Positions 33,780-53,491 are shown, numbered from the stretch's first letter. The stretch is 64,000 nucleotides of DNA from SAR86 cluster bacterium (GCA_002401885.1 NVUL01000001.1:32966-96965), one strand, 5' to 3'. Translations and numbers: made by a program. Notes: generated by a model from the letters alone, not told the origin.

Positions 33780-35492
33780 CTACTCTCCCGTGCTTGCAGC
33801 GTCCGCCGATTCAATAGCAATCTCGCCACTCTTGATCTTCGAAATTATGCCGAGCGCTTCCAGCATAACCATGATGCTAGTGACCATCACTAACACCTCG
33901 ATAACAACCAATGCCCACTGCCCTTTCTGATAATGATCTACGATGTACCAGCAAGAAGCCCAGAATGCCATTGTGAAGATAAGGATCATCGGCGCCAGAA
34001 TGAATTTAGGCGAGCGCCCCAATCTCATTAGATAGACTGCGATCAGTAGCAGGGTCATCGAGGCGAGGATTTGGTTAGTTCCGCCGAACACAGGCCAGAT
34101 CAAAGCACCACCGTCTCCAGGGTAACCACCAGCAGACACACCGAAGGCCAGCATCAGACACGCCGCTATCGCGACCAGTGTAGCGACGATGTTGTTCTTC
34201 AACGCTCCTATATTATAGATACTACCCCATTCTTGAATGATGTAGCGCTGCAAGCGTAAGCCGGCATCCATAGTAGTACCCGCGAAGAGCACTACCATTA
34301 CAGCGAGCATAGTTTGCGCGAAGGCGATGGGGATGCCCCAGCCGGTGGAAATCAAGATCGCACCGCCGTCGATAAAGCCCTTCTGCCCAGGACCATCATA
34401 AAATCCAGAGTAAAGCGCACTCCAATCCGCGGAATTTGCCGCATAAAGAGATCCTGTCACCGCAACGATTGTTATCAATGCCAGCGAACCTTCACCAAGT
34501 GCACCGAGATAGCCAACAAAGCGCGCGTCCTTCTCATTGCTCAACTGCTTAGAGCTGGTTCCGGAAGCTACGATTCCGTGGAATCCAGACAGGGCACCAC
34601 AGGCAATTGTGACGAAGAGGATTGGCCATATTGGCGGTGTATCCGTAGCCAGATTCGGATTGAACGCTGGTGCGGTTACATCTGGTAATGCGATAAATAC
34701 CGCGCTGTAGAGAACGAACAAACCTACGACTAGTTGCGCACCATTAATGTAATCACGTGGTTGCAACAAGAGCCATACCGGCAACATCGAAGCAATACCG
34801 GCATAGACAAACAACAAGATAATCCAGTTGCCATTCGCTCCGAGGCCAAAAATATCGCCCGGTAATTCCAGAGGCATCACACTTCCGACGTAGATCGTGA
34901 AGTAGAGAATCGCAACACCGATTACTGATATCAGCAGAAGGTTGTAATTTTTCCGAATCAATACTCCGATGCATATCGCTACGGGAATCGCAGCCCAGGC
35001 AGGAAATACCGATGAAGGGAAGATAACCATGTCTGTCGCAATGATGGTCGCGAACATCGCGTTAACCAATACCAGCAACAGAAAAATTATTACCATGAAC
35101 AAGGCCGAGGCACGCTTACCAATAACATCTGAGGAAAGTGCACCGATTGACTTTGCGCCGTGACGGTTGCTTGCCCATAAGGCTCCCATGTCATGAACAC
35201 CGGCGAAAAATATAGATCCGAACGTCACCCACAACAAGGCTGGAACCCATCCCCAGTACACCGCGATCGCTGGACCAACGATTGGCGCGGCGCCGGCAAC
35301 AGCGGTAAAGTGCGCGCCCCAGAGCACATACCTATTAGTCGGCACATAGTCAACACCATCGTTTATTCGATGCGCTGGAGTCACGTAGTCAGGGTCTAGC
35401 TGATAGATTTTCCCTGCGATGAATTTGGAATAGACGAACCAGCCAAAAGAAAAACCAACAAGGCCGAAAATGACGATGAAGATCGAGGACAT
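33780..35492 (-). CDS. cstA: Carbon starvation protein CstA family transporter
   Basis: NDGVDYVPTNRYVLWGAHFTAVAGAAPIVGPAIAVYWGW...GFHGIVASGTSSKQL; start trimmed to 35492. Confidence 0.93.
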   Translation of the reverse strand: MSSIFIVIFGLVGFSFGWFVYSKFIAGKIYQLDPDYVTPAHRINDGVDYVPTNRYVLWGAHFTAVAGAAPIVGPAIAVYWGWVPALLWVTFGSIFFAGVHDMGALWASNRHGAKSIGALSSDVIGKRASALFMVIIFLLLVLVNAMFATIIATDMVIFPSSVFPAWAAIPVAICIGVLIRKNYNLLLISVIGVAILYFTIYVGSVMPLELPGDIFGLGANGNWIILLFVYAGIASMLPVWLLLQPRDYINGAQLVVGLFVLYSAVFIALPDVTAPAFNPNLATDTPPIWPILFVTIACGALSGFHGIVASGTSSKQLSNEKDARFVGYLGALGEGSLALITIVAVTGSLYAANSADWSALYSGFYDGPGQKGFIDGGAILISTGWGIPIAFAQTMLAVMVVLFAGTTMDAGLRLQRYIIQEWGSIYNIGALKNNIVATLVAIAACLMLAFGVSAGGYPGDGGALIWPVFGGTNQILASMTLLLIAVYLMRLGRSPKFILAPMILIFTMAFWASCWYIVDHYQKGQWALVVIEVLVMVTSIMVMLEALGIISKIKSGEIAIESADAASTGE

Positions 35493-35753
35493 AAAGCGCT
35501 CTCCCGGATTATTATTATGAAATCTAAGTTCGGCATCATAGCAAGTTAGGGGACGGCGATACAACGTAATGTCGCGTAATTACTGGCTTTGTTTGGATTA
35601 TCTGGATTCAGTTACCCACTTACTTTCCAGCTATTTAGCCAACCTATTCGACGATAGTTCAGACGCGTCTTCTTCATTAGCTTTATTCCAAAGCAGAGGA
35701 TAATAGGTGACTCTTTCTGGTGTAGCCGTTGGCCTGCGGCGTACTAACCACTC

Positions 35754-36041: not shown

Positions 36042-37745
36042 TTAGTTAGATGGTGCCGCCGCATGGTATGTCCAGTAGCCGATGAACATCTCATCCCAGC
36101 TCTGCAATCCAAAAACAAGTTCCTGACTTGGGTCAGGGTTAGCCGGATTGAATTCGGAATTATCGAAAGCACCGGTGACGTGTACTTTAGTGCCCGCCTT
36201 AATCTGTACTGGCTCTTCCAATTCATAAGTAGGCTGCCATGCGTAGCTGTAGTTTGGAACGCTAAGCAGATCAGTCATTGTGCCGTCTTCATTTTCCATG
36301 GAGAACTTCATGTCCTTGCCACGGAAGTGCATGTGAGCACGTAGGCCAGTTACGACTACGTCCTCATCGAACGTATATTGAGCCGCTGATTCGTAGTCCT
36401 GGTCGTACGCAGGGATTTTGAACTGTGAAGCTACCGAACGAGTGAAATTCTCGTACTTAGGTGGCTCGTCGTACATATACAGACCAATGAGCGTCTCATC
36501 AGTTGTCGCTTTACCGTTAGTTGTAAAGTGGAACTGCATGGACAATTTATGATCTTTAGGAATGTACACACCCGTATCTTCAGGGAAAGACATCGCATCT
36601 ACCTTACCGGGGGCATAACCCTCGAGGAAACGACGTGCAACAGAAGTTGTGTTGCCTTCTCCACCGTCGAAATTCTCGGCGGGCGCAGTTACGTAGGTGA
36701 GAAGGTGATGAAGAACTGTCTCGTCACCGGGGATAAACTGAACCGCTTTAACCCACTTGTCTTCGTCGAAAGGAAGCTCGACGTCCACATCGATGTAGTC
36801 GAGAACACCAGTGGCTGGAATTTCCATCTTCGGCGCCTTAACGATGAAGTCAGGCTCGCCTAGGCTCCACTCTTTCCAGTTAGGCATATCTATCTCTGTT
36901 AATGGGTCAATAGCCGCGGCACCGCGTGGTGCTCCAGCATCAATCCAGTGAACAAGAGTCTGCAGGTCTGCATCTGTCATGTAGCGCGCATTGTTGAAGT
37001 GCCCGATATTTGGGTCAACCTGTGTAGGTGGCATGCGCTTAGTAATAAGTGTTTCACGAATCATCGGCGACCAGCCCTGCAGCATCAGGTGGCTGTCCAT
37101 CGCGAATGGTCCAATTCCACCCTCGCGGTGGCAAGTTGCACATTGCTCAGCAATGATTGGTGCAACTTCTGTTGCATAGTCTGGAATTGCGCTTGCGTGA
37201 AATTCTTTTACTGGGAATTCGAGATCACAACCAACAGCATCAATAATCATTGTGCGCTCTACTGTTCCAGCTAATTCACTAGACAATGTAGCTGCTGCAC
37301 TAGCTACCGGGCCACGGTAGAGAATAGTAAGACGCTCTGGGTCGAGGATAACGATCTCCCCAGCCTTAGTCAGAGACAGAGTTTCAGAAACGATCTGGCC
37401 GTCGTCGAGCAGCAGGGGCAAGTCCGAACCCAGTGCCGATTTGGCGGAGCGAATCGCCTCAATATTAGATTCTGCCGAGGAGTTGATCAACGCAAACGCG
37501 ATACCCTGATCGCTCCATGCAGACGCCATAGCCTCTAGGCTAGCTACAGACGAATTGATGGCTGAACAGCTGCTATCGAAAGACATTAATACTAATGCTT
37601 CTTTGTTGCGGTAACGGCTCAACTGGTGGAAATCGCCGTTGCTATCCATAAGTCCAAAATCACCCACTCTATCAGGCAGCGCCATGGCTGAGGCAGATAG
37701 AACTGAAGCGATCAGGGCTATGCCGAATCCGATTAATTTATTCAT
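36042..37745 (-). CDS. Exported redoxin-like / cytochrome c-like (CATCH) / copper type II PHM-DBM-like monooxygenase, paralog A
   Basis: Signal peptide; redoxin-like segment with one Cys; EQCATCHREGGIGPFAMDSH...TKRMPP; copper-site-like HHLLTY, MQFHFTT, RAHMHFRGKDMKF, SWDEMFIGY. Confidence 0.8.
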   Translation of the reverse strand: MNKLIGFGIALIASVLSASAMALPDRVGDFGLMDSNGDFHQLSRYRNKEALVLMSFDSSCSAINSSVASLEAMASAWSDQGIAFALINSSAESNIEAIRSAKSALGSDLPLLLDDGQIVSETLSLTKAGEIVILDPERLTILYRGPVASAAATLSSELAGTVERTMIIDAVGCDLEFPVKEFHASAIPDYATEVAPIIAEQCATCHREGGIGPFAMDSHLMLQGWSPMIRETLITKRMPPTQVDPNIGHFNNARYMTDADLQTLVHWIDAGAPRGAAAIDPLTEIDMPNWKEWSLGEPDFIVKAPKMEIPATGVLDYIDVDVELPFDEDKWVKAVQFIPGDETVLHHLLTYVTAPAENFDGGEGNTTSVARRFLEGYAPGKVDAMSFPEDTGVYIPKDHKLSMQFHFTTNGKATTDETLIGLYMYDEPPKYENFTRSVASQFKIPAYDQDYESAAQYTFDEDVVVTGLRAHMHFRGKDMKFSMENEDGTMTDLLSVPNYSYAWQPTYELEEPVQIKAGTKVHVTGAFDNSEFNPANPDPSQELVFGLQSWDEMFIGYWTYHAAAPSN

Positions 37746-37951
37746 TACTAAGGCTCCAAAAAGCTAATTATTAACCTATTTATTAACCACAGCAGTCTAG
37801 CCCAATTGATGCAAAATGTGCAGCCTGAAACATTACTTTTTGTAACAAGTTGACGCAGATACCGTGCGGTTTACCGAGGCTTCTAACGAGGCTTGACCGA
37901 AAAATTGGAGATTTAGGAGTGGGCTGTCAGGTTTAGCATTCACACCACACT

Positions 37952-37975
37952 AAAAAAGGCCGAAATCGGCCCTCT
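37952..37975. terminator. Probable intrinsic terminator
   Basis: aaaaaaggccgaaatcggccctc. Confidence 0.6.
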
Positions 37976-38006
37976 GTGGAGGTCGTACTGGAGATTAAGC
38001 TTGTGT

Positions 38007-39773
38007 CTACCGGCTGGTTTTATTGTAGGAAAGATAGCCAATAAACATCTCATCCCAACTCTGAGCGCCTCCCCTGACAGCAGCGGCTGGGTCTGGGTTG
38101 CCAAGATTATATTGGGAATTATCAAAGGCACCCTCGATCATCACTCTCGATCCAGCAGGCAGTAACATAGGTTCGGAGAGGCGGTAGGTTGGTTGCCAGG
38201 CGAAATTGTAGTCTGGCACATTAATGATCTGGTCTTTTGTGCCATCTGGATAGACGACGCTGAAGCGCATGCGCTTGCCACGATAATGCATGTGCGGACG
38301 CAGTCCGTGCAACAGCACCTCCTCTTCGAACACATGGGACGCACGCATCGCGTGATCGGATACGCCCGGTGGAATTTCGATGTTACGCCCACCGTGGCTT
38401 AAGGAATAAGTAGAGTACTGATAATCGGGCTCTTCCTCGGCGAAATAGAGGCCTAGCTTTGTACTATCAATCGCTTCTTTTCCGAATGTCGTGTAATGCA
38501 GAGACATTTGCACCGCTGAACCCTTGGGTACAAATACTCCCGTTTTTTCGGGATACGTTACCGCCTCATCTTTACCAGGGGCATAGCCTTCCAGAAATTC
38601 TCTGTAGTTGTCGTTTTCGCCCTCAATGATTTCTTCAGCATAGTCAGCGGGAACGATATAGCTCAGCAAATGATGAAGAACTCGGCGATCGCCCGGAAGG
38701 TGTTGCACCGACTTAACCCAGACGTCTCCCTCGAAAGGCAATTCGATCGTAACATTCTCGTAGTCTAAGACGCCGGTTGCAGGCACGGTGAAGGCGGGCA
38801 CATCGACGATGTAATCAGGCTCCCCTAGCTCCCAAGCCGAATTAGGTGGCTCGATTAGAGTGAGCGGATCAACTTCACTGACACCACGGGGCGAGCCCGC
38901 ATCTATCCAGTGAATGAGAGTTTGCAACTCCTCTGCATCCATATAACGCGCGTTGGTAAAATGATTCACGTTAGGGTCAACTTGAGCAGGCGGCATGCGC
39001 TTGGTCATCATGACTTCCTTCATCATCGGCGACCAACCTTGGACCATCATATGCGAATCCATAGCGAATGGTGCTATGCCCCCTTCTACATGGCAGCTAA
39101 TACACTTCTCTTCCAATATTGGGGCAACCTCAGTCGCATAGTCAGGCGTATAATTGGCATGCATCTCTCTGGCTGGAAATTGCAGCTCACAACCGGCCGC
39201 ATCTGTAATGATAGTTTGCTCGATTGAGGCTGCATCACCGGCAACTGCGGCGGCCAACACATCTGCAAAAACGGTAGTCCCTGCTACGGCCTCAATATTG
39301 AGTGCGGGGCGTGCTCGCACCGGGTCAGTATCCAAGCCACCGCGGTAAAGAATCTGGCTGCGCGCCGGCTCCAATACCACTATCTCACCCGCCTTGCTTA
39401 GGCCAAGACTTTCGGCGACAAGCTGACTGTCATCTAACAAGATGGGTAGTTCGAAATTGTGTAGATTGTCCATCAGACGAACATCGTCGGCACTATCAAT
39501 GGCGTCGGAATTTATGGCAAGGAAGGTAATTCCTTGTTTCTCCCAAGTAGTACGCAGTAAGCGATACTTGTGCAGCTGCTCAATATTATCAATGCAGCCC
39601 ACCGCTGTAGCAATAATGACTACCGCCTTGCTATCGCCATATTTCTGCAGTTGGTGGTAGACACCCTTGTGATCGATTAGAGCGAAATTTCCAACTCGCT
39701 CAGCGCCAGCATGGGCTTGGATCGCGAAGACACTGTTTAATATGACGAGAACTAGTGCGCATAGCTTTTTCAT
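38007..39773 (-). CDS. Exported redoxin-like / cytochrome c-like (CISCH) / copper type II PHM-DBM-like monooxygenase, paralog B
   Basis: EKCISCHVEGGIAPFAMDSH...TKRMPP; HHLLSY, MSLHYTT, RPHMHYRGKRMRF, SWDEMFIGY. Confidence 0.8.
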   Translation of the reverse strand: MKKLCALVLVILNSVFAIQAHAGAERVGNFALIDHKGVYHQLQKYGDSKAVVIIATAVGCIDNIEQLHKYRLLRTTWEKQGITFLAINSDAIDSADDVRLMDNLHNFELPILLDDSQLVAESLGLSKAGEIVVLEPARSQILYRGGLDTDPVRARPALNIEAVAGTTVFADVLAAAVAGDAASIEQTIITDAAGCELQFPAREMHANYTPDYATEVAPILEEKCISCHVEGGIAPFAMDSHMMVQGWSPMMKEVMMTKRMPPAQVDPNVNHFTNARYMDAEELQTLIHWIDAGSPRGVSEVDPLTLIEPPNSAWELGEPDYIVDVPAFTVPATGVLDYENVTIELPFEGDVWVKSVQHLPGDRRVLHHLLSYIVPADYAEEIIEGENDNYREFLEGYAPGKDEAVTYPEKTGVFVPKGSAVQMSLHYTTFGKEAIDSTKLGLYFAEEEPDYQYSTYSLSHGGRNIEIPPGVSDHAMRASHVFEEEVLLHGLRPHMHYRGKRMRFSVVYPDGTKDQIINVPDYNFAWQPTYRLSEPMLLPAGSRVMIEGAFDNSQYNLGNPDPAAAVRGGAQSWDEMFIGYLSYNKTSR

Positions 39774-40084
39774 TTAAATAACCTTTCAGTTAGCAAGGTC
39801 GCTGCTAGAGTGTAAGGGGTAATTCCTCTTAAAATCTCACTTCGCTCTACCACGATGAGACAACGGCAGAATCCGATTAGATCTGGACTCAAGCAATACC
39901 GGTAGCTTAGCGCAATCTGCTTATTAACGAGAACAATAGACTGTAAGGCTTTGTGACAAATTGAAACTGACGCGGAGGTGGAAAATGCTACTAAATTACA
40001 TTAATTCAATAGCTTAAGGAATTTTTCTGCCGACTCAGAAACGCGAGTCCAGGCCGGCAGCAGAGCGTGATAAACGCTTCAAAT

Positions 40085-41464
40085 TTAGCTGTTAGCGTCG
40101 CGGCTAGCGCCATAAGTGCTCATGTTCTCAACTAGCGAGAATCGACGGAAAAGTTCGTACATTCCCCAGAGCGCGAGCCCGATAACGATTAACATCATGC
40201 CCCAGCGCATTAACCCCGAGAAGAAGATCGAATCGAAAATAGGCGCCTGCAATTGATACTGCGCAAGCGTATTGCCGCGATCCAACATCCAGTGCCAGGC
40301 ACTGTGCGCCAGCAAAGCGGAAAGCAGAATGGTGCCAATACGCTCCTGAACGAAGAAACGAAACAGAATGCGTAGCAGAGGAATGACCAAGATGAGCACA
40401 AGGATTTGACCAAATTCCACACCTACATTGAACGCCAGCAGGGAAGAGAACAGATGTCCGCCAGCAAATTGCAGCGTGTCACTAAACAGGAATGAAAAAC
40501 CAAAGCCGTGTACCAAGCCGAAACCAAAAGCAGCCACCCAGCGATGCTGTAGTTTTGCACCGACTATGTTTTCGAATGCCATGTAGACAATGGAGAGCGC
40601 TATTAGAGTTTCGATCAAAGGTGGGAACCAGAGCGCGTTAGGCGCCATGCCAAATGCCGAACTGATGAGAGTTATCGAGTGAGCGATAGTAAAGGACGTT
40701 ATCACTGGAATTAGCGCGCGCAAGTTACGCAGAGGTATCACGAGACAGAAAAGAAACAACAAGTGATCTATGCCATCCAGAATGTGTTCGAAACCCATAT
40801 TCACAAACCGGAGTGCGGCCTGATACCAGCGCGGGTCCAATAGCACCACACCTGGATTACCGAGATAATTGAAGACGCGTTCCGCGCCCGACGGCAATAG
40901 GAAGCGCAGCACGGTCGTAGTCTGATTCGACAAGGTGCCTATCTCTGGATTGATGGAGAATTCAGACTGATCCGACGAAATGGGATACGTCACCATGACA
41001 TCCAGCACACCCTGTCGCCAAAATAAATCTACCGAATCATCGAGTCGCGGGCTAAGAATATTTTCTAAGGCATCATCGAAGGTAGTGAAGGATCGATTTG
41101 ACGGCAGAGAAACTCGAACTGCCTCCAGCTGCTTCTCGGTCAATTCCTCACCGTTCTCATAGAAGCGAATGGATTCGGTGATGTAAACGCGAGCCGCATC
41201 ATTCAGGGAGAACTCCGCCTCGGAGAACTGAAGATAACCGGGGCCGCGCAGCGGGAAACTGATCTCACTAAAAGCCTCCATCGGCACACGCAATAACGCC
41301 GTAAGCTGGTTCCCTTCGGGTTTGACGAATGCGTACACAGTGACACGACTGGGAATATCGTGAGCTAAGCTCAGCGATGGCATCAAAAGAGCCGCAAGCA
41401 ACACACAGGGTGTAATTAGTTTTTTAAGCGAAACTACGCTTAATACTGCGCTAATTTTATTCAT
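40085..41464 (-). CDS. HupE/UreJ-family membrane protein with N-terminal periplasmic domain
   Basis: GFEHILDGIDHLLFLFCLV...FTIAHSITL...GFGLVHGFGFSFLF...FNVGVEFGQ; start trimmed to ATG at 41464. Confidence 0.82.
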   Translation of the reverse strand: MNKISAVLSVVSLKKLITPCVLLAALLMPSLSLAHDIPSRVTVYAFVKPEGNQLTALLRVPMEAFSEISFPLRGPGYLQFSEAEFSLNDAARVYITESIRFYENGEELTEKQLEAVRVSLPSNRSFTTFDDALENILSPRLDDSVDLFWRQGVLDVMVTYPISSDQSEFSINPEIGTLSNQTTTVLRFLLPSGAERVFNYLGNPGVVLLDPRWYQAALRFVNMGFEHILDGIDHLLFLFCLVIPLRNLRALIPVITSFTIAHSITLISSAFGMAPNALWFPPLIETLIALSIVYMAFENIVGAKLQHRWVAAFGFGLVHGFGFSFLFSDTLQFAGGHLFSSLLAFNVGVEFGQILVLILVIPLLRILFRFFVQERIGTILLSALLAHSAWHWMLDRGNTLAQYQLQAPIFDSIFFSGLMRWGMMLIVIGLALWGMYELFRRFSLVENMSTYGASRDANS

Positions 41465-41604
41465 AATTTCTTGTTTATTATTAGTAATTTCAGTTAGATA
41501 GATAGCGCGCAGTGGAAGTTGAATAGAGCCTCGATAGCGCTTCAATCGCTATCATCTAAAGACTGTTACAAATACTTACACCAAGCCCCCGGAAAATTTG
41601 GCCT

Positions 41605-41638
41605 GTGAGTATACTGTCTACAAAGAAGTGAGTATACT
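41605..41638. promoter_or_regulatory. Paired direct repeat GTGAGTATACT in divergent intergenic region
   Basis: Identical 11-mers at 41605-41615 and 41628-41638, each containing the palindrome AGTATACT, between divergent hupE-like and PAL-like genes. Confidence 0.6.
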
Positions 41639-41697
41639 CGGCCTTGCTCTAAGAGCATAAAACCTCCCGCAATTCGGGCATTTAGAGGAAAATAAGA

Positions 41698-42888
41698 ATG
41701 ACAAAGAAACTAATTATAGGGGCAACTTTAGTCGTTGCATTGGTTGTCCTTGGTCTTGGGCAATCGAAAATACAAGAGCCAAGCATCGCCGCATCTAATG
41801 ATGTAATGGCACCACATTTTCTCGTGGATCCATTCTGGCCTAAGCCACTTCCTAATCATTGGGCAATGGGCAACACAATCGGAGTTGACGTAGACGAGAG
41901 AGATCATATCTTCATCGTGCACAGAAATGACGCGTCTCAATTCGGTGGCAACACTGAAATTGGTCTACAGGGCGGCGTCGCAGAATGCTGCACTCCTGCA
42001 CCACCAATCATTGAAATCGACATTGAAGGCAACATCATCAATGCATGGGGCGGCCCTGTTGAAGGCGCACCTTATGACTGGCCTGCATCTAACCACGGTA
42101 TCGAAATCGCGCCTAACGGTGACGTTTGGATCGGTGGTAACGGCGCCGGTGACTCCCACGTTCTCGTGTTCACACGTGACGGCGAGTACATCCGTACAAT
42201 CGGCATGCAAGGCGAAGATCGCGACAGTAACAGCGAGACACATTACGGCCGCGTTGCTGAAATCGCCATTGACGCTGAAGCCAACGAAGCCTACTTCGCT
42301 GATGGTTATCAGAATAAGCGTGTTGCGGTTGTTGACGTAGCCACTGGCGCCTTGAAGCGCTATTGGGGTGCTTACGGTAATACTCCAGACGATACGGCGG
42401 ATGTAACCTATGTTCCCGGCCAGCCTGGACCTCAGCAATTCCGTGGCCCAGTTCACTGTGCAGAGCCTTCAAACGACGGACTTGTATATGTTTGTGACCG
42501 TGGTGCTGACCGAGTTCAGGTATTCCGCAAAGACGGCACTTACGTAAGAGAAGTTGTTTATAACCCAGCTACATTGAACCAAGGTTCGACTTGGGACATC
42601 GCTTTCTCACGTGACCCTGAGCAAGAGTTCATCTATCTTGCAGACGGTCAGAACTTCAAGATCTCTGTAATCGATCGTGAGTCAATGGAAGTACTTTACA
42701 CTTTCGGTCAAGGTGGCCGTCAGCCAGGTACATTCTACGCACCTCACAGTATTGCCACTGACTCTCAGAACAACATCTACACAACTGAGACTTATGAAGG
42801 CAGCCGCGTACAGAAATTCCTCTACCAAGGAGTTCGCCCGGTGACAGTTGTAGACCGCGCGCCAACTTGGCCTGCTGACGAGCTGTAA
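41698..42888 (+). CDS. Exported NHL/beta-propeller protein, peptidyl-alpha-hydroxyglycine alpha-amidating lyase (PAL)-like
   Basis: N-terminal TM/signal; blades SNHGIEIAPNGDVWIGG, GLVYVCDRGADRVQVF, APHSIATDSQNNIYTTETYEGSRVQKF resembling PAL metal/catalytic blades. Confidence 0.75.
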   Translation: MTKKLIIGATLVVALVVLGLGQSKIQEPSIAASNDVMAPHFLVDPFWPKPLPNHWAMGNTIGVDVDERDHIFIVHRNDASQFGGNTEIGLQGGVAECCTPAPPIIEIDIEGNIINAWGGPVEGAPYDWPASNHGIEIAPNGDVWIGGNGAGDSHVLVFTRDGEYIRTIGMQGEDRDSNSETHYGRVAEIAIDAEANEAYFADGYQNKRVAVVDVATGALKRYWGAYGNTPDDTADVTYVPGQPGPQQFRGPVHCAEPSNDGLVYVCDRGADRVQVFRKDGTYVREVVYNPATLNQGSTWDIAFSRDPEQEFIYLADGQNFKISVIDRESMEVLYTFGQGGRQPGTFYAPHSIATDSQNNIYTTETYEGSRVQKFLYQGVRPVTVVDRAPTWPADEL

Positions 42889-42909
42889 GAAACTGTTCAG
42901 AGCGTTTTA

Positions 42910-42948
42910 AACTAAGCCGTATCGAAGCAATTCGATACGGCTTTTTTA
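42910..42948 (+). terminator. Intrinsic terminator downstream of PAL-like gene
   Basis: gccgtatcgaagcaattcgatacggcttttttat. Confidence 0.85.
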
Positions 42949-42976
42949 TGCTCGATGATCTCTTGCGTATTGCCTC

Positions 42977-43178
42977 CTATCTATGACCAATACCCAAACA
43001 ATACTGAGCTGTGGAGAAACGGCAGCTCATCTTTACCAACCTTTATTCAGTTCTTTCTATAAGTATCATCTACGAAATACTGAGCGCAGGAGAAACGGTC
43101 TTTTTAACTTACGATAGATGCCGAATAGCCTTCTATCTATAAATATCATCTAAGAATTACTAAGCGCAGGAGAAACGG
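42977..43178. repeat. Three imperfect direct repeats, period ~76-80 bp
   Basis: Copies at 42977-43022, 43051-43098, 43131-43178; core (t)ctat.....tatcatcta.gaa.tactgagcgcaggagaaacgg. Confidence 0.8.
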
Positions 43179-43343
43179 CGTTCCGTCTTTACAACTATCA
43201 GTTCATCTCTCATTCATATGCCATGCTTGATCATAGTTAACATGTCAATTATGCTCAGACCCCGAACAGATACGGCTAATAGAGACATTCAATTAGCCAC
43301 CGCAACTAACAATAGATCAATAAGCGACGAGAGACTCATCTCC

Positions 43344-43916
43344 ATGAAAATTCGAACCCTGATTTCACTATGTGCCGCCTGCATTAGTTTATTCTCTATC
43401 CCCGCCCTTGCCGTGGAAGATATTGTCATCAACTATGAAAAGACTGGTAGCCCGCGCGCCGATCTGAGCAACATGAAAGTTAGTTTGCGCATTGCCGAAT
43501 TTACCGACGGCAGGATGGTAGAGAACCCGCGCCTGATTTCAGATGCCCAGCTTTTGGGTGCCGATGGCTTTCAAGCTGAGAAGGCGATCTCGGCTATAAT
43601 TCAGGATGCTATGCAAAGCGGCTTCGCGAACGCGAACGCGAATCTGGTGGATGCCGACGGCGATATGTTCCTACAGGGAAACCTGACCGCCAGTGAGGTA
43701 CAGATCGTCGATCGTGGTGGCGTTGAGACACTGCAATTAACACTGCGCGCCTCTGTACAACTAATGAGTGGTAGTCGCACCGTGTGGCAGACAAACCTAT
43801 TCGGTCGCGGTAGAGCCCCTACCAGCGAAGGTATGGCAGTCACTGTACGTGCTGCCTTGGACAGGCTCATCAATGAGCTCATAGGTGATGACTATTTTCT
43901 AGCAGAGATTCGCTAG
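43344..43916 (+). CDS. Exported protein of unknown function
   Basis: MKIRTLISLCAACISLFSIPALAVEDIV signal peptide from ATG 43344; remainder resembles YajG-like lipoproteins only loosely. Confidence 0.7.
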   Translation: MKIRTLISLCAACISLFSIPALAVEDIVINYEKTGSPRADLSNMKVSLRIAEFTDGRMVENPRLISDAQLLGADGFQAEKAISAIIQDAMQSGFANANANLVDADGDMFLQGNLTASEVQIVDRGGVETLQLTLRASVQLMSGSRTVWQTNLFGRGRAPTSEGMAVTVRAALDRLINELIGDDYFLAEIR

Positions 43917-43949
43917 AAATTTATTCCGCTGTTTCCGCTCTACATTTTC

Positions 43950-43980
43950 AAAGAATCTAGAGATATCCTCTAGATTCTTT
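43950..43980. terminator. Bidirectional intrinsic terminator between convergent genes
   Basis: aaagaatctagag-atatc-ctctagattcttt. Confidence 0.75.
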
Positions 43981-43982
43981 GC

Positions 43983-44849
43983 CTAGAAACAACCCAGACT
44001 GGTGTCCATCGATCCTAATACTAGTCTGGGGTTTTCTGGGAAAAATTCCAAGCCCGTCGCTTTCTCAATCTCATCTATACTTGCCCTGTTGTCGCAATGG
44101 TGAACATGCACGGGCAAATCCTGATCGAAGATGAACGCCGTAGCCCGATTGTCCGGCGAGACTACGATTTTAAAAAATGCATCTGGCACCCTGTGCTGAG
44201 TCTGTGTTTCTAAACTCGCAGTGACTGGCGTCTCTCTGAATATAGGCCCGGTTAAGACATACACTTCGTTCTCTCTATTCACCCAATTTCTAATTGACCA
44301 TTCCAAACCATACCAGGCGCCCTGACTCAAATTCCGGCTACGCGCCACAGCATTGCTCATGTAGTTCACTTCGTTCCAGTAGGGTGTGCCTGCAAAATTG
44401 ACCAGCGGCACGAATCGCGCACGAGTAAGTCCACTCTCTTCGGCGTTGATAAAATCTGCCGCACTCAGCGTCTCCTCGACAAAGTCATCGACCAAGGCCT
44501 CGCGCGATAGGCTCGATGCAATTCCTATGGAGCCCGAGGTAACCCGATAGGCAGCCCAATCCGCCGCCTTGTTGCGTGTGCTGTATGAAAGCGCATAGAT
44601 CGGACGAAGAATCAGGTGATTCTCTGTGCTGCCTCCGACGGGGCAACCGTGCAAGCAGTGGGCTATACGCAGCTCAACAGACTGACTTTGGGACATGGAT
44701 ACAATCAACACCACTGCCAGAACAACTCTCCGAAATAGGGAGAGAACGCCTGCCGAGAACGCCGGATGCCCTAATTGAATGACAATTTCTGCCTGTTTGG
44801 TGCATTTCAGAAGCAAGCTACTAACCTCACTGAAGGTCTGGGAAGACAC
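43983..44849 (-). CDS. DNA/RNA non-specific endonuclease-like (NUC1 fold) exported protein, catalytic motif altered
   Basis: NYMSNAVARSRNLSQGAWYGLEWSIRNWVNRENEVYVLTGPIF matches the NUC1-family core, but the DRGH position reads TRAR; true start may be further downstream. Confidence 0.65.
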   Translation of the reverse strand: MSSQTFSEVSSLLLKCTKQAEIVIQLGHPAFSAGVLSLFRRVVLAVVLIVSMSQSQSVELRIAHCLHGCPVGGSTENHLILRPIYALSYSTRNKAADWAAYRVTSGSIGIASSLSREALVDDFVEETLSAADFINAEESGLTRARFVPLVNFAGTPYWNEVNYMSNAVARSRNLSQGAWYGLEWSIRNWVNRENEVYVLTGPIFRETPVTASLETQTQHRVPDAFFKIVVSPDNRATAFIFDQDLPVHVHHCDNRASIDEIEKATGLEFFPENPRLVLGSMDTSLGCF

Positions 44850-45188
44850 GGGAAGGAGTTGAATTCTAACGCCTGCTGCACCCTAAACTCCAGCACCCGT
44901 TAAGCATTAATTCGGGCCTGGCTATGGCCTAATTTTGCTCATGAAAACAGCAAAACCCCCTCTACAAGATCCACCCATTGGCAATAATTCCGCTGTTTCC
45001 TGCAATTGAAAAATTGCGCATCGCGCAAAAACACTGAGTTTCAGCTCAATTCTGCGGAAAACAGCTATTCGATTATTCAAATTCAGTATTTTTTTAATAT
45101 TCAGGAAGTATTCCTTGATTTTGCATCCTACTATGCGCCCTAAGTTAGAAAGCAGTACCTGATATTTATGAAGTTTGAGGAGAGCAAA

Positions 45189-46934
45189 ATGCTTAGATTT
45201 TCAATGATTGCCAAGATCGCAACTGCATCACTGATGACAGTTTTCATTGGCATGTCCGCCAACGCCGCTGATCGAATTAGTGATTTCTCACTAACCGATG
45301 CCGATGGCCGATTTTTCCAACTAAGTCGTCATGGCGATGAACAGGCTATTGTCCTTTTCTCCTTCGATCCAAAAAGCAGAGACGCACGTCGTGCCGCCGG
45401 TGATCTTGCCGACGTGGCTGAACAATTCGAGGGCCAGAAGGTCGAGTTCTTGATGATTAGCTCCACGGGTTCCACGGACAAACTGGCCATGAGAGAAGCA
45501 GCAGAGAAAGAAGACATCACTCTGCGCATACTCATGGATGACACTCAATTGGTAGCTGAAGAGCTGGGTCTTAGCCGAGCTGCAGAAGTAGTAATTCTTG
45601 ATCCTACCGCCAAAGAAGTTGTTTACCGCGGCGCGCTAAACGATCGCTTCGCTGAGGGTAGCCGCGCAAGACGCGCCAAAGTGCATTATGTCGCAGACGC
45701 ACTAACGGCGATTCTGGCTGGTCAGGACCTCAGCATTGAGCAAGTGGCGAGTAAGGGCGACGAGATCGACTTCTCAGCTAGCGTCGCTGTTACCGCATCA
45801 GTTTCCTACGCCAACGACATCGCGCCTATTCTTAAGGAGCGCTGTGTTACTTGTCATATGGAAGGCGGCATAGCCCCTTTCGCTATGAGCAGCCACCAGA
45901 TGGTTCAAGGTTGGTCGCCAATGATTCGTGAAACGCTCTACACCAAACGCATGCCACCGGGTCAGATTGACAATGAATTCGTGGAAAGCTTCCACGGCGT
46001 AAATCACATCACCATCGAGGAGACTCAGAAGCTGGTTAGCTGGATCAATGCAGGCTCTCCAAACAATGACGACTCCGATCCTCTTGCGGAATATCGCCCG
46101 GAAGTCGTTAAGTGGGCCAATGGCACGCCTGACATGATCATCCCAATTCCTGAGCAACGCATCCCAGCGACGGGCGTTCAAGACTATCGCAACCTGATGC
46201 TTCCTCTCGACCTTGACGAAGACATCTGGGTGAAGGCGGTTGCGTTCGCACCAGGCGACACTACGGTACTTCACCACATCATTGCCTTCTCTTATGGCGC
46301 TGATGGCATGAATGAATTTGAAATACTGAATCAAGGTATCGGTCTTGGCGCTTATGCGCCGGGCAATTCCCTTAATACCTATCCAGAAGGTGCTGGCTAC
46401 CCGCTTGAGGCTGGCGGTGGCTTGATGCTACAAATGCACTACACCACCTCAGGCAAGGAAGCAGTAGATGCATCCGAAATTGGAATCTATCTCTGGGACA
46501 AAGAGCCAGATCGCCGAATACTTGGCGGCTCAGCTGCAGACCTTGAGATCAGCATCGAGCCATTCGAAGCTGATCACGAGATGATAGCGACCAAGAAATT
46601 CCGTAAGGATGCTCTTTTGACTATGGTTGGCCCGCACATGCATTACCGCGGTTACGATGCCAATTTTAAACTCGTCTATCCTGATGGCAAGGTGGAAGAA
46701 ATTCTCAACGTACCTAATTATCAGTTCAACTGGCAGAAGACTTATGACTTCAAAGAGCCTAAGTTCTTGCCTGCTGGCACTGAGATGGTGTTCAGGGCTA
46801 CATTCGACAACTCGGCGAATAACCCTTTCAACCCTGACCCATCGTCAACGATCTCGTGGGGGGAACAAACCTGGCAAGAGATGTTCTTCGGCTTCTTCCG
46901 CTATGTAGATGCGGAAACAGGTGAAGGTGAATAA
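45189..46934 (+). CDS. Exported redoxin-like / cytochrome c-like (CVTCH) / copper type II PHM-DBM-like monooxygenase, paralog C
   Basis: ERCVTCHMEGGIAPFAMSSH...TKRMPP; HHIIAF, LQMHYTT, GPHMHYRGYDANF, TWQEMFFGF; GAGGAGA RBS before ATG 45189. Confidence 0.8.
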   Translation: MLRFSMIAKIATASLMTVFIGMSANAADRISDFSLTDADGRFFQLSRHGDEQAIVLFSFDPKSRDARRAAGDLADVAEQFEGQKVEFLMISSTGSTDKLAMREAAEKEDITLRILMDDTQLVAEELGLSRAAEVVILDPTAKEVVYRGALNDRFAEGSRARRAKVHYVADALTAILAGQDLSIEQVASKGDEIDFSASVAVTASVSYANDIAPILKERCVTCHMEGGIAPFAMSSHQMVQGWSPMIRETLYTKRMPPGQIDNEFVESFHGVNHITIEETQKLVSWINAGSPNNDDSDPLAEYRPEVVKWANGTPDMIIPIPEQRIPATGVQDYRNLMLPLDLDEDIWVKAVAFAPGDTTVLHHIIAFSYGADGMNEFEILNQGIGLGAYAPGNSLNTYPEGAGYPLEAGGGLMLQMHYTTSGKEAVDASEIGIYLWDKEPDRRILGGSAADLEISIEPFEADHEMIATKKFRKDALLTMVGPHMHYRGYDANFKLVYPDGKVEEILNVPNYQFNWQKTYDFKEPKFLPAGTEMVFRATFDNSANNPFNPDPSSTISWGEQTWQEMFFGFFRYVDAETGEGE

Positions 46935-46992: not shown

Positions 46993-47141
46993 GCTAGATT
47001 TGCTGCCAGAATTCTATGGTCACACGCCGTCCCCTGAGCTATTAAGATGCAATCGGTTGCCATTACCGGTCGTCCTGACAGCATAGGGGGAAATTGCTAG
47101 TATCCAAGCTCTCCTTATCCATCTGGAAAGAATTACACACC

Positions 47142-48797
47142 ATGAAGAAGTTACTCCTATCCACACTGACTTTGTCTCTGATAGCGTCTATGAGCGCTAC
47201 GCTAATCGCTGATACCACACTCTATACAAATGTGAACGGCTATACGCTCGACTCGAATCGAGAGCTGCAGCAGTTTACCGCCATCCAGTTCACGGATGAT
47301 CGAGTTGATAGACTTTTTAGAGAAGACGAAGAACTGCCGCAGGATGTTGATACCCTAATAGATGGCAGTGGCCAGACGCTGATTCCAGGGCTCATCGATG
47401 CCCATGGACACGTTCTTAGCTACGGTCTAAGTCTGTTGCGGGTTGATTTGGTAGGAACCGAGACAGAGCAGGAGGCAGTGCAGCGGGTCGTAGACTTCGC
47501 GGAGAATAGCGAACAGCTCGAATGGATTCAGGGGCGCGGCTGGAATCAAGTGCTGTGGGATAGTAACGAGTTTCCATCGGCAGTGAGCCTGGACGCGGCC
47601 CTGTCAGACAAACCTGTTTGGCTCAGCCGTGTCGACGGCCACGCGGGATGGGCAAACAGTACGGCTATGGAATTGGCCGGAGTCGACCGTCGAAGCGGAG
47701 ATCCAGACGGCGGACAAATTATTCGTGACGAGGATGGCAATCCTACCGGCGTTTTCATAGACAATGCCATGGCGCTAATCCGGACGCAGATCCCAGCAAC
47801 GAGCATAGAAGAACAGAAATTCGCTCTGCGCACGGCGATGCTCGAACTGGCGAAGCAGGGACTAACCAGCGTGCATGATGCGGGCGTAGGGAGCAGTGCG
47901 ATAGAAGCCTATAAGCAGCTATTAGCAGACGGCCCTCTGCCTATCCGAGTCAACGTGATGTTATCTGCCGGAGACGATTTCTTTGAGCAACGCCTCAGTG
48001 AGGGACACTATCGCAGCGCAGATGATACGCTGACTATGAACAGCGTGAAAATCGCTGCAGATGGTGCACTGGGCAGCCGCGGCGCTGCGATGATTGACGC
48101 CTATTCTGACCTCTCCGGACACACTGGACTGTTACTGCACAATCCCGAACGTCTTGAGTATTTTATGCGCGCTGCCATGAACGCGGGATTTCAGGTCAAC
48201 ACCCATGCGATCGGCGACAATGCCAATAAGGTAGTACTGGATAACTACGAGCAACTTATCGCGGAAACGAACTCAAGAAGCTTGAGGCACCGAGTAGAAC
48301 ACGCACAAATCCTGCGCTTTGAGGACATACTCCGCTTCGCTGAACTAGGCGTCATTCCTTCGATGCAGGCAACACACGCGACCAGCGACAAGAATATGGC
48401 AGTGGACAGGATTGGTGATGTCCGTATTCAGGGCGCTTATGCGTGGCGCAAACTAATCGATGCCGGCGCATTGATAGCTAACGGGTCCGATTTTCCCGTA
48501 GAGTCGCCGAACCCCTTCTTCGGCCTGCACGCAGCGATCACACGCCAGGACAAGAGTAACGAACCTCCGGGTGGTTGGTTCCCCGAAGAGAAGATGACCG
48601 CAATTGAGGCCTTCGCCAGCTTTACCATCGACGCGGCCTATTCGGGCCATCAGGAAGATTTGCTCGGCACTCTGGAACCGGGCAAGAAGGCAGACTTCAT
48701 TATTCTGGATAGAGATATTTTCGCAATCGATGGGAGCGAAATCTGGCAGATCGAAGTAGAAGAAACGTGGGTTAATGGGCAACGCGTTTCCTACTAG
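47142..48797 (+). CDS. Exported amidohydrolase family protein (amidohydrolase_3/YtcJ-like)
   Basis: TLIPGLIDAHGHVLSYG...HAIGDNANKVVLDNYE...HRVEHAQ...NGSDFPVE; signal peptide from 47142. Confidence 0.88.
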   Translation: MKKLLLSTLTLSLIASMSATLIADTTLYTNVNGYTLDSNRELQQFTAIQFTDDRVDRLFREDEELPQDVDTLIDGSGQTLIPGLIDAHGHVLSYGLSLLRVDLVGTETEQEAVQRVVDFAENSEQLEWIQGRGWNQVLWDSNEFPSAVSLDAALSDKPVWLSRVDGHAGWANSTAMELAGVDRRSGDPDGGQIIRDEDGNPTGVFIDNAMALIRTQIPATSIEEQKFALRTAMLELAKQGLTSVHDAGVGSSAIEAYKQLLADGPLPIRVNVMLSAGDDFFEQRLSEGHYRSADDTLTMNSVKIAADGALGSRGAAMIDAYSDLSGHTGLLLHNPERLEYFMRAAMNAGFQVNTHAIGDNANKVVLDNYEQLIAETNSRSLRHRVEHAQILRFEDILRFAELGVIPSMQATHATSDKNMAVDRIGDVRIQGAYAWRKLIDAGALIANGSDFPVESPNPFFGLHAAITRQDKSNEPPGGWFPEEKMTAIEAFASFTIDAAYSGHQEDLLGTLEPGKKADFIILDRDIFAIDGSEIWQIEVEETWVNGQRVSY

Positions 48798-48855
48798 TTC
48801 GTAGCTGGCCACTTAAGTAACACATGGCGATGCTTCGCAGCGCAGGTGAACGACT

Positions 48856-51084
48856 ATGAATAAATGTCCCCTATCAGCTTTACTACTGACCGCTCTTCTT
48901 ACAACCTGTTCGCCGCCGTCGCAGGAGGCTGAACCGGTAAGCCAAGCGATTGCTTCGGCAGCGCAGATCGATCCTGCTGAGTTGGCTCGCTGGGAACAGC
49001 TGGCAAGCAGTGTCACCATCAGCAGAGACAAATGGGGCATCGCTCACATCTACGGAAAGACAGATGCGGATACCGTATTCGGCACGCTGTACGCACAGGC
49101 CGAAGACGATTTTAATCGAGTCGAAACCAACTACATCAATGCTATGGGGCGCTTGGCAGAGGCCGAGGGAGAAGCCGAACTGTTTCGCGACCTCCGCATG
49201 AAACTGTTCATCGATCCTGTCGATATGCAGGCGCAATATAAGGCGAGCCCAGAGTGGCTGCAGAGCCTGATGAATGCGTTCGCAGACGGGCTTAACTACT
49301 ATCTCTACACACACCCTGAGGTGACACCCAGAGTTATCGATCGCTTTGAGCCGTGGATGGCGTTGACGTTTTCGGAAGGCAGCATCGGCGGAGATATTGA
49401 GAGAGTCAATCTTCGAGAACTACAACGCTTCTATGGTGACGGCACACTAGTGGCGCAAACCGAATCAGTTTCCGATGGAGAACCGCGCGGATCCAATGGC
49501 TTCGCGATCGCCCCCTCTAATACAGAACATGGCAATGCGCTGCTGTTGATCAATCCACATACTTCCTTTTTCTTTCGTTCCGAGCTGCATATGGTCAGCG
49601 AAGAAGGGTTGAATGCCTACGGTGCGGTAACCTGGGGGCAGTTCTTTATCTATCAGGGCTTCAATGAGAACGCAGGCTGGATGCATACGTCTAGTCGCGC
49701 CGATGCGATAGATGAATACCTAGAAACCATTGTACAGAAGGATGACGGCTACTATTACCTGTTTGGCGACGAGGAACGAAAGCTAGAAGAAACTGAAATC
49801 AGCCTTCCATATAAGAATGATGATGATATGGCGGCGAAAAATTTCACTGTCTATCACAGCCACCATGGGCCGATAATTCGCGAGCGGGATGGCAAGTGGG
49901 TAAGCATTAAACTCATGCAGGAGCCAATTAAGGCGCTCACTCAATCCTACACCCGCACCAAGGCGCAGAACCATGAAGAGTTCTACGCGAGCATGGAGTT
50001 ACAGACTAACTCTTCGAACAATACGGTGTACGCCGATTCCGATGGCAATATTGCCTATTACCACGGCAACTTCATTCCGGTTCGTGACCCTTCATTCGAT
50101 TGGAACAGTCCGCTAGATGGCAGCAATCCGGAAACGGAATGGCAGGGCCTACACCCAATCGACGAGATAATTCATCTACTGAACCCGACCAACGGTTGGA
50201 TTCAAAACACTAACAACTGGCCATTCACAGCGGCTGGGGAATATAGCCCGCGAGCTGAGGACTATCCTCCCTATATGGCAAACAATGCGGAAAACTATCG
50301 CGGTGTACACGCCGTTCGTGTCTTGAAAGAGACAAGCGACTTCACCATAGATAAGCTTATCGAGGCTGCTTATGACCCCACACTAACCGCCTTCGAAGAC
50401 TTGATTCCTGGCCTTCTGCTTATAACCGCGGTTGATAACCAAGGGGAGTTGCAGGCCTCTATTCAATCTCGCACGCTCGAGTATATCGATCTACTTCGGA
50501 ACTGGGATTACAAGTATTCCATCGATTCCACTGCTACCACACTCGCGGTCTACTGGGGCCAAGCCCTGATGAATCAAGTAGCAACTGACGCCTCCAGAGC
50601 CAACATCAATGTCTACAAATACATGGCGAACAATGCCAGCATCGCACAGAAATTAAGTTCACTGCGCAACGCAGCAGAGCAGCTTGAAACCGATTTCGGC
50701 GATTGGCGTGTCCCCTGGGGAGAGATCAATCGCTATCAGCGACTGAGCGGCGATATCGTGCAAGACTTCAATGATGAAGCGGTGAGCCTTCCTGTAGCTT
50801 TCGCATCTTCACGCTGGGGTTCGCTCGCATCGTTTGGAAGCCGAACCTATCCGGGAACCAAAAAGATGTACGGCACGAGTGGAAATAGTTTTGTCGCAGC
50901 GGTGGAGTTCGGCGACAAAGTTACTGCGAAGGCAATTACGGTGGGGGGATTGAACAATGATCCCAACTCTCCCCATTTCGATGATCAGGCTGAGATGTAT
51001 ACCAAAGGCGAATTTAGGGACGTACTGTTCTATAGAGAAGATATCGAAGCGAACTTAGAAAGAGAATACACTCCCGGGAACTAA
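48856..51084 (+). CDS. Penicillin acylase (Ntn-hydrolase) family protein
   Basis: DKWGIAHIYGKTDADTVFG...GEPRGSNGFAIAP (Ntn Ser motif)...NNTVYADSDGNIAYYHGNFIPVR. Confidence 0.9.
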   Translation: MNKCPLSALLLTALLTTCSPPSQEAEPVSQAIASAAQIDPAELARWEQLASSVTISRDKWGIAHIYGKTDADTVFGTLYAQAEDDFNRVETNYINAMGRLAEAEGEAELFRDLRMKLFIDPVDMQAQYKASPEWLQSLMNAFADGLNYYLYTHPEVTPRVIDRFEPWMALTFSEGSIGGDIERVNLRELQRFYGDGTLVAQTESVSDGEPRGSNGFAIAPSNTEHGNALLLINPHTSFFFRSELHMVSEEGLNAYGAVTWGQFFIYQGFNENAGWMHTSSRADAIDEYLETIVQKDDGYYYLFGDEERKLEETEISLPYKNDDDMAAKNFTVYHSHHGPIIRERDGKWVSIKLMQEPIKALTQSYTRTKAQNHEEFYASMELQTNSSNNTVYADSDGNIAYYHGNFIPVRDPSFDWNSPLDGSNPETEWQGLHPIDEIIHLLNPTNGWIQNTNNWPFTAAGEYSPRAEDYPPYMANNAENYRGVHAVRVLKETSDFTIDKLIEAAYDPTLTAFEDLIPGLLLITAVDNQGELQASIQSRTLEYIDLLRNWDYKYSIDSTATTLAVYWGQALMNQVATDASRANINVYKYMANNASIAQKLSSLRNAAEQLETDFGDWRVPWGEINRYQRLSGDIVQDFNDEAVSLPVAFASSRWGSLASFGSRTYPGTKKMYGTSGNSFVAAVEFGDKVTAKAITVGGLNNDPNSPHFDDQAEMYTKGEFRDVLFYREDIEANLEREYTPGN

Positions 51085-51308
51085 CCTAAGACAGAGAGAG
51101 CCTATTGACCAAGCAAAGCCACAAATTTATCTGGAGGAAGAATACACTCCCGGGAACTAACCTAAGACAGAGAGCCTATTGACCAAGCAAAGCCACAAAT
51201 TTATCTGGAGGAAGAATACACTCCCGAGAATTAACCTAAGACAGAGAGAGTCTATTGACCAAGCAAAGTCACAAATTTATCTGGAGGAACATTCTCCCAG
51301 AAACTAAA
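51064..51308. repeat. Tandem repeat array, period 76/74 bp, three full copies plus partial fourth, starting inside the acylase 3' end
   Basis: gaatacactcccgggaactaacctaagacagagagagcctattgaccaagcaaagccacaaatttatctggaggaa starts at 51064, 51140 and 51214; partial copy near 51288. Confidence 0.95.
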
Positions 51309-51338
51309 AAAGCCCCGACAAATATCGAGGCTTTTTGT
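51305..51338. terminator. Intrinsic terminator
   Basis: aaaaaagccccgacaaatatcgaggctttttgt. Confidence 0.8.
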
Positions 51339-51385
51339 CAACAACTTGACGCTAAGTGTGCATCAAACCATTTGGCAACCGCTAG

Positions 51386-53104: not shown

Positions 53105-53491
53105 TAGATTGCTCTCAAATAGTGCGCTAGGCCAAATCGCCTTTTTGCATTTAGCTGTATTCCGGATCGTTGCAGACTTGCATTTTAATGCATCGCGGTC
53201 TCACGTTCACGTCATAATACCGTGCCTACTATCGAGAAAACATCGGTTTAGGAGGCAAAAATCTCCTCTTTCTCTGCCTAAATCCTCCTTGATTCACGAA
53301 ATCCAGAGTGTGAGACCAAGGGAATCATTCAATTTCCCGCTATTCCATTGTCATTAGGTAATTCTAAGTGCTAGCTTTACGGACTTGATACATCGGCAAT
53401 GACCCCGTATGGATCGGTGTATTATTCACTAGGGCCCCTGCTAGCCTGCAGAACAAGCAAATACTCAACTTACCAACGAGACACTACTACT

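Follow-up and report, generated by a model that had tools for sequence, protein, structure and literature searches.

We analysed a window of 64,000 nucleotides from the SAR86 cluster bacterium GCA_002401885.1 (NVUL01000001.1:32966-96965), in which the interval 36042-46934 holds three paralogous genes whose predicted products join a redoxin-like domain, a c-type heme motif and a copper monooxygenase core of the PHM/DBM type in one polypeptide. PHM and DBH are copper enzymes that animals use for peptide hormones and noradrenaline, with ascorbate (vitamin C) as the source of electrons, and the delivery of electrons to their two distant coppers, as well as the transfer from one copper site (CuH) to the other (CuM), has long been debated. 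Four further genes lie in the interval; they encode a small exported protein, an endonuclease, a HupE-like protein and a homolog of peptidyl-alpha-hydroxyglycine alpha-amidating lyase (PAL).

Locus and domain architecture

The open reading frames (ORFs) of all three paralogs are complete (Table 1), and paralogs 2 and 3 share 50% and 39% identity with paralog 1, respectively. Each protein begins with a hydrophobic signal-like segment, which is followed by an AhpC/TSA-like domain (Pfam AhpC-TSA, E 4e-11 to 6e-5), the CxxCH region and the copper monooxygenase core (Cu2_monoox_C, E 2.5e-6, 1e-4 and 4e-3). The Cu2_monoox_C score lies above the curated cut-off of 23 for paralog 1 (27.5) and below it for paralogs 2 and 3 (22.3 and 17.1), and the families Cytochrome_CBB3, Cytochrom_C and Haem_bd give weak matches; the N-terminal domain of the copper core likewise had insufficient support from Pfam. 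Because several Pfam matches fall under the curated cut-offs, further evidence was required, namely the fold match to PHM and the profile alignment with DBH described below. The three-domain polypeptide proposed in a sequence-only reading of this DNA holds as an architecture, with the correction that the redoxin-like part of paralog 3 contains no cysteine at all. Beyond that reading, we found about 21 family members in the genome, a redoxin part that is dispensable, and the PAL homolog between the paralogs.

Table 1 Features of the interval and of related loci (positions in the window, unless preceded by a locus label)
Feature	Position	Strand	Remarks
Paralog 1 (P0001)	36042-37745	-	567 aa; signal-like N-terminus, redoxin-like, cytochrome c, PHM core; ORF, Pfam
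Paralog 1, CxxCH (CATCH, residues 202-206)	37128-37142	-	Candidate axial Met238 at 37032-37034
Paralog 1, CuM HxH (H471, H473)	36327-36335	-	Arg469 ahead of HxH
Paralog 1, other copper ligands	HH 36705-36710; H406 36528-36530; M553 36087-36089	-
Paralog 2 (P0002)	38007-39773	-	588 aa; signal-like N-terminus, then three domains; ORF, Pfam, AlphaFold2 model
Paralog 2, redoxin-like domain	39192-39704	-	Approximate boundaries
Paralog 2, cytochrome c domain	38847-39161	-	Approximate boundaries
Paralog 2, PHM core	38010-38816	-	Approximate boundaries
Paralog 2, CxxCH (CISCH, residues 224-228)	39090-39104	-	End of predicted helix
Paralog 2, Met260 of TKRMPP	38994-38996	-	Candidate distal heme ligand
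Paralog 2, CuH pair (H367-H368)	38670-38675	-	Third ligand H426 at 38496-38498; invariant; aligned with DBH His pair
Paralog 2, CuM ligands (H494, H496)	38286-38294	-	Third ligand M576 at 38046-38048; Arg492 two residues earlier
Paralog 3 (P0003)	45168-46934	+	588 aa; architecture as paralogs 1 and 2; ORF, Pfam
Paralog 3, CxxCH (CVTCH, residues 226-230)	45843-45857	+	Met262 at 45951-45953
Paralog 3, copper ligands	HH 46272-46277; H424 46437-46439; HxH 46635-46643; M572 46881-46883	+
CstA-family transporter	33780-35564	-	Downstream of paralog 1; Pfam CstA 6.6e-130; synteny
HupE/UreJ-like membrane protein	40085-41545	-	Pfam HupE_UreJ_2 5.8e-41; conserved synteny
NHL beta-propeller, PAL homolog	41698-42888	+	PAL homology by profile
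Small exported protein	43218-43916	+	Conserved neighbour
DNA/RNA non-specific endonuclease	43983-44849	-	Pfam Endonuclease_NS 1.2e-24; synteny
CuM-less clade members	L003:1492-3228; L004:1495-3186		Homologs in L034, L035, L123, L125-L128
Exported protein of ~300 aa	L137:4865-5815; L141:6516-7391; L143:1539-2498; L144:6358-7272; L145:6902-7858; L146:7578-8504; L147:7525-8508; L148:9063-10034; L149:6855-7871; L150:6834-7814		Beside redoxin-less cytochrome-PHM genes
Stand-alone relative of redoxin-like domain	L139:3050-3637		Own genome

Copper core

Paralog 2 was modelled with AlphaFold2 from 20 homologs (mean pLDDT 83.5, pTM 0.81). The model has PHM as its best fold match in the PDB (Foldseek, E ~2e-14), with DBH next (E 1e-13), and the top structures for its predicted two-domain beta-sandwich core are 8dsl, 3mll and 1phm (TMt 0.58-0.67). 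A profile of 18 diverse PHM cores could be aligned with human DBH over positions 2-262 of 279 (E 7e-4), such that the HH, H, HxH and M that make up the six copper ligands are superposed on those of DBH. All six are among the 14 invariant columns of the core alignment, which has a mean identity of 33%, and the three-His CuH site and the HxH-plus-Met CuM site are both present in the three window paralogs. When paralog 2 was used as a single sequence, a PDB search found no PHM, but the profiles and the fold search did. Predicted fold and ligand conservation together support a PHM/DBM-type dicopper core, as the sequence-only reading had proposed, and both sites are presumably loaded with copper.

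An Arg two residues ahead of the HxH, which we take to be the counterpart of the substrate-carboxylate Arg240 of PHM, occurs in paralogs 1 and 2 and in 98 of the 115 redoxin-class sequences that have the HxH. At the same position paralog 3 has Gly, and most redoxin-less members have Gln, which DBH also has there. Judging from these residues, substrate recognition looks more PHM-like in paralogs 1 and 2, and not in paralog 3.

Putative heme c domain

Each paralog has exactly one CxxCH, with GGI.PFAM at an offset of +7 and the Met of TKRMPP at +36 from the first Cys. This succession of motifs, noted in the sequence-only reading for all three proteins, is borne out by the ORF translations. A CxxCH is unlikely to arise by chance, as it appeared in 0.03-0.12% of 20,000 composition shuffles. 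The cytochrome part comprises ~100 residues with three predicted helices, the first ending at the CxxCH, the second just before the MPP and the third carrying a W..aGa motif, and a conserved linker (DPL..W..GEPD..P..PATG) joins it to the copper core. Among 26 sequences of two classes, this domain has 10 invariant columns that include the C, C, H and M of the heme motif; the position of Met260 in paralog 2 is the only Met invariant across both classes, and the PP that follows it is also invariant.

The profile of the cytochrome domain reached the hydrazine synthase alpha heme domain at E 1.2e-4; its matches to other cytochromes were not significant. A class I-like cytochrome c fold is suggested rather than proven by the isolated model of the domain, since its top five fold matches are all c-type cytochromes of which none is significant (E 0.8 and worse). 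Heme would be attached covalently at the CxxCH, and ccmE, a gene for cytochrome c maturation, was found in the own genome and in 5/5 relatives tested.

Family size, distribution and constancy of the heme motif

In the own genome, 25 stretches were matched, of which two each belong to three split proteins and one covers no more than a redoxin domain. This leaves ~21 proteins, 7 with the redoxin domain and 14 without it, and all 19 family proteins that were read contain the CxxCH. Every one of the 18 congeners sampled has between 9 and 21 matches with E at or below 1e-20, and none of the 10 genomes from other families of the order has a match. Even samples gave full-length matches in 3/274 other genomes of the class and in one genome (G530) from a different class of the same phylum, and the loci inspected also have the CxxCH, MPP and HxH. 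As the sampling was confined to the own phylum, the cytochrome-PHM fusion may well be wider. A 421-aa frame (L152) from a genome outside the class but within the phylum has CxxCH, MPP and HH motifs and no HxHxRG, its profile match ending at the CuH half. No family member was found in plasmids, PADLOC gave no result, and no paper on a cytochrome c-PHM fusion was found in the open-licence literature.

An alignment of 147 complete homologs and paralog 2 (148 rows, many closely related to one another, so that the count overstates independence) retains the heme motif with Cys in 145, Cys in 145, His in 144 and Met in 146 rows, the remainder being gaps or X. Motif and Met are thus intact in every homolog with a readable region (~145). 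The apparent losses of the CxxCH are not real: the start codon of L053 was called late and the motif is present, L117 has a run of N, L031 is a fragment without the region, and L057 has an X at the His.

In nine sequences, grouped in a single clade (support 0.94), the HxH is replaced by RxN, RxS or RxG, and the heme motif, the three CuH His and the CuM Met are kept. The CuM site has probably been lost in this clade, and as the loss is confined to it, probably in one event. Since the heme motif is kept both where CuM is lost and where the redoxin domain is absent, heme and CuH appear to form a unit, and of the indirect evidence that electrons enter through the heme, this joint retention in the sequences is the strongest. 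Several genes of the CuM-less clade adjoin redoxin-less cytochrome-PHM genes. A second conserved pairing links redoxin-less cytochrome-PHM genes with an exported protein of ~300 aa, found beside them in 10 of the 11 own-genome regions that hold such genes; the three of these ten proteins that were scanned match no Pfam family.

Redoxin-like domain

The N-terminal part of the paralog 2 model has thioredoxin-like 3u5r and 2ywi as fold matches. In paralogs 1 and 2 a single Cys occupies the active-site position, in addition to Cys173/195, and paralog 3 has no active-site Cys. Across the 148 rows the domain is present in 125 sequences and missing in 23, in which the cytochrome-PHM pairing is kept; Cys60 and Cys195 are both present in 109 of the redoxin-bearing sequences and both absent in 9. 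A role of the redoxin domain as general electron donor was rejected, because one class does without the domain and several members have it in a form without Cys. As it is so often cysteine-free or absent, the heme and not the redoxin is the constant partner of the copper core, and the N-terminal AhpC/TSA-like domain is an accessory module rather than a constant redox partner. Relatives of this domain also occur as stand-alone proteins in the own genome and in two others (L153, L154).

The joint retention of Cys60 and Cys195 in most redoxin-bearing sequences could also point to a copper-handling or thiol-redox assembly factor, which would insert or reduce metal and would be no hydroxylase. The existence of the CuM-less clade, a HupE/UreJ-like neighbour that may move metal and the known Sco-cytochrome c fusion 2l4d, which gives a weak match only, would be in keeping with such a role. 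We nevertheless regard it as improbable, given the complete PHM fold with both copper sites and the paralogs that, like paralog 3, are without any redoxin Cys, and 9 to 21 divergent, strongly matching copies per genome are more to be expected of diversified enzymes than of an assembly factor.

PAL homolog and gene neighbourhood

The profile of the NHL beta-propeller encoded between the paralogs aligned with the PAL structure 3fvz over residues 60-369 in one colinear stretch (E 2.6e-13; 2.3e-13 in a second search), with its HR, HG and DGY motifs aligned with the Arg, the first His and the Tyr of PAL. Residues H75 R76, H133, Y204, H253 and H350 of the propeller are invariant in 19 homologs and match in kind the three Zn His, the Tyr and the Arg that PAL uses. 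Two neighbouring cysteines of the propeller (ECCTPAPP) are likewise invariant.

Many metagenome-assembled genomes share the cluster, the relatives bearing labels such as OM182, Pseudohongiella and Pseudomonadales. In the genome scan, most loci show the gene order PHM, endonuclease, small exported protein, NHL propeller(s), HupE, one or two PHM, CstA, biotin ligase and pantothenate kinase, with propeller identities from 99% down to ~65%. The endonuclease is probably functionally unrelated to the paralogs, and we judge both it and the birA/coaX-type genes to be syntenic and incidental. Paralog 3 is followed (window 47094-54859) by Amidohydro_3, penicillin-amidase-family, gamma-glutamyltranspeptidase-family and membrane-dipeptidase genes, and an amidohydrolase homolog also adjoins a PHM gene in L116 and L118; as a guess, the genes downstream of paralog 3 would fit amide or peptide breakdown.

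Whether the propeller acts on the products of the paralogs is a separate matter from the source of their electrons. The hydroxylases may be unconnected to it, the propeller being another NHL enzyme or a binding protein, since TRIM-type NHL proteins equal or beat PAL in repeat similarity and an NHL gene occurs in only 2/14 other own-genome regions with these monooxygenase genes. However, the TRIM-type proteins outscore PAL only in pieces, among the enzyme matches PAL alone aligns from end to end in a single stretch, with all three motifs in register, and in many genomes the propeller is more conserved than the adjoining monooxygenases. We therefore hold the absence of such a connection to be possible but rather doubtful; it would concern the coupling only and is compatible with a heme electron donor.

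Proposed electron route

With moderate confidence, we favour a reading of the paralogs as periplasmic PHM-like copper hydroxylases that would receive their electrons through their own attached heme c and would form a split PHM-PAL pair. The small mono-heme cytochrome c directly ahead of the copper core would be the electron-entry domain, its heme most likely being reduced by the periplasmic cytochrome pool. Single electrons would pass from the heme to CuH and from there to CuM, where O2 would be activated and the substrate hydroxylated, and this route would take the place of the ascorbate used by the animal enzymes. Paralogs 1 and 2, in which an Arg stands where PHM has its substrate-carboxylate Arg, would for this reason probably hydroxylate a glycine- or carboxylate-ended substrate. 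The PAL-like propeller would probably cleave the hydroxylated product, as a split form of the animal PHM-PAL pair, and we infer that at least two paralogs work with this lyase.

Several observations weigh against this reading. The Pfam cytochrome scores of the paralogs are under the cut-off and the isolated cytochrome model has no significant match; the kinship among the aligned homologs makes their number overstate the independent cases; the conserved Arg is equated with Arg240 of PHM by its position ahead of the HxH and not by an alignment; and the proximity of the genes does not prove that the propeller acts on the product. The PHM cores of P0001-P0003 have no cysteine, so that the disulfides of the animal core are missing; these conserved disulfides are not needed for the fold. 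The connection between heme and copper, which the sequence-only reading had framed as an internal donor, is in our analysis likewise drawn from sequence conservation, and ascorbate or another reductant acting directly on copper is compatible with all evidence.

In line with this last point, the proteins could be true PHM-like hydroxylases in which the heme has a sensor, peroxide-handling or structural role, with copper receiving its electrons from external small molecules or proteins, as the use of ascorbate by the animal relatives and the weak model of the cytochrome domain might indicate. The N-terminal DOMON domain of DBH has the fold of a heme-binding cytochrome domain and no heme ligands (PMC4846438). 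We consider a heme without donor function unlikely, because no loss of the heme motif occurs among the readable homologs, the CuM-less and redoxin-less ones included, and because the linker between the two domains is strongly conserved.

With a heme fused by nature, these proteins would contain their own optical probe and a defined point of electron entry, which would allow the transfer to copper to be followed directly. The family would consist of bacterial hydroxylases that have expanded to ~20 copies in a marine group; the lyase homolog encoded beside them hints at a bacterial, possibly catabolic, counterpart of animal peptide-amidation chemistry. More tentatively, and with less confidence than in the electron route itself, the paralogs may belong to an ascorbate-independent, lineage-expanded PHM-type family wired by its fused cytochrome c to the respiratory chain, in which the CuM-less subfamily would act as a dedicated electron-transfer subunit and a split PHM-PAL pathway would oxidatively cleave glycine-ended compounds in marine bacteria.

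Comparison with known systems

PHM and the PHM-PAL enzyme PAM share the core fold and the six copper ligands with the paralogs, near which a PAL homolog is encoded. They differ in that the paralogs are bacterial and predicted to be exported, have fused cytochrome c and redoxin-like domains and no core cysteines, and have the PAL homolog as a separate gene. The core of DBH/DBM can likewise be aligned with all six ligands and is also preceded by an N-terminal accessory domain; whereas the DOMON domain of DBH lacks heme ligands, a c-type heme motif with invariant ligands stands before the core here. The C-terminal mono-heme cytochrome c of hydrazine synthase alpha resembles the heme domain of the paralogs in the CxxCH stretch and the later W..aGA helix, but it belongs to a different enzyme and only short stretches align. 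The thioredoxin-like proteins 3u5r, 2ywi and 2cvb correspond to the N-terminal domain in fold and sequence, whereas the paralogs have at most one Cys at the active-site position and several have none. A functional parallel to the proposed route is offered by cytochrome-assisted copper oxygenases such as cellobiose dehydrogenase with LPMO (lytic polysaccharide monooxygenase), in which a heme domain supplies electrons to a copper oxygenase as we propose here, although with another fold, a b-type heme and usually as a separate protein.

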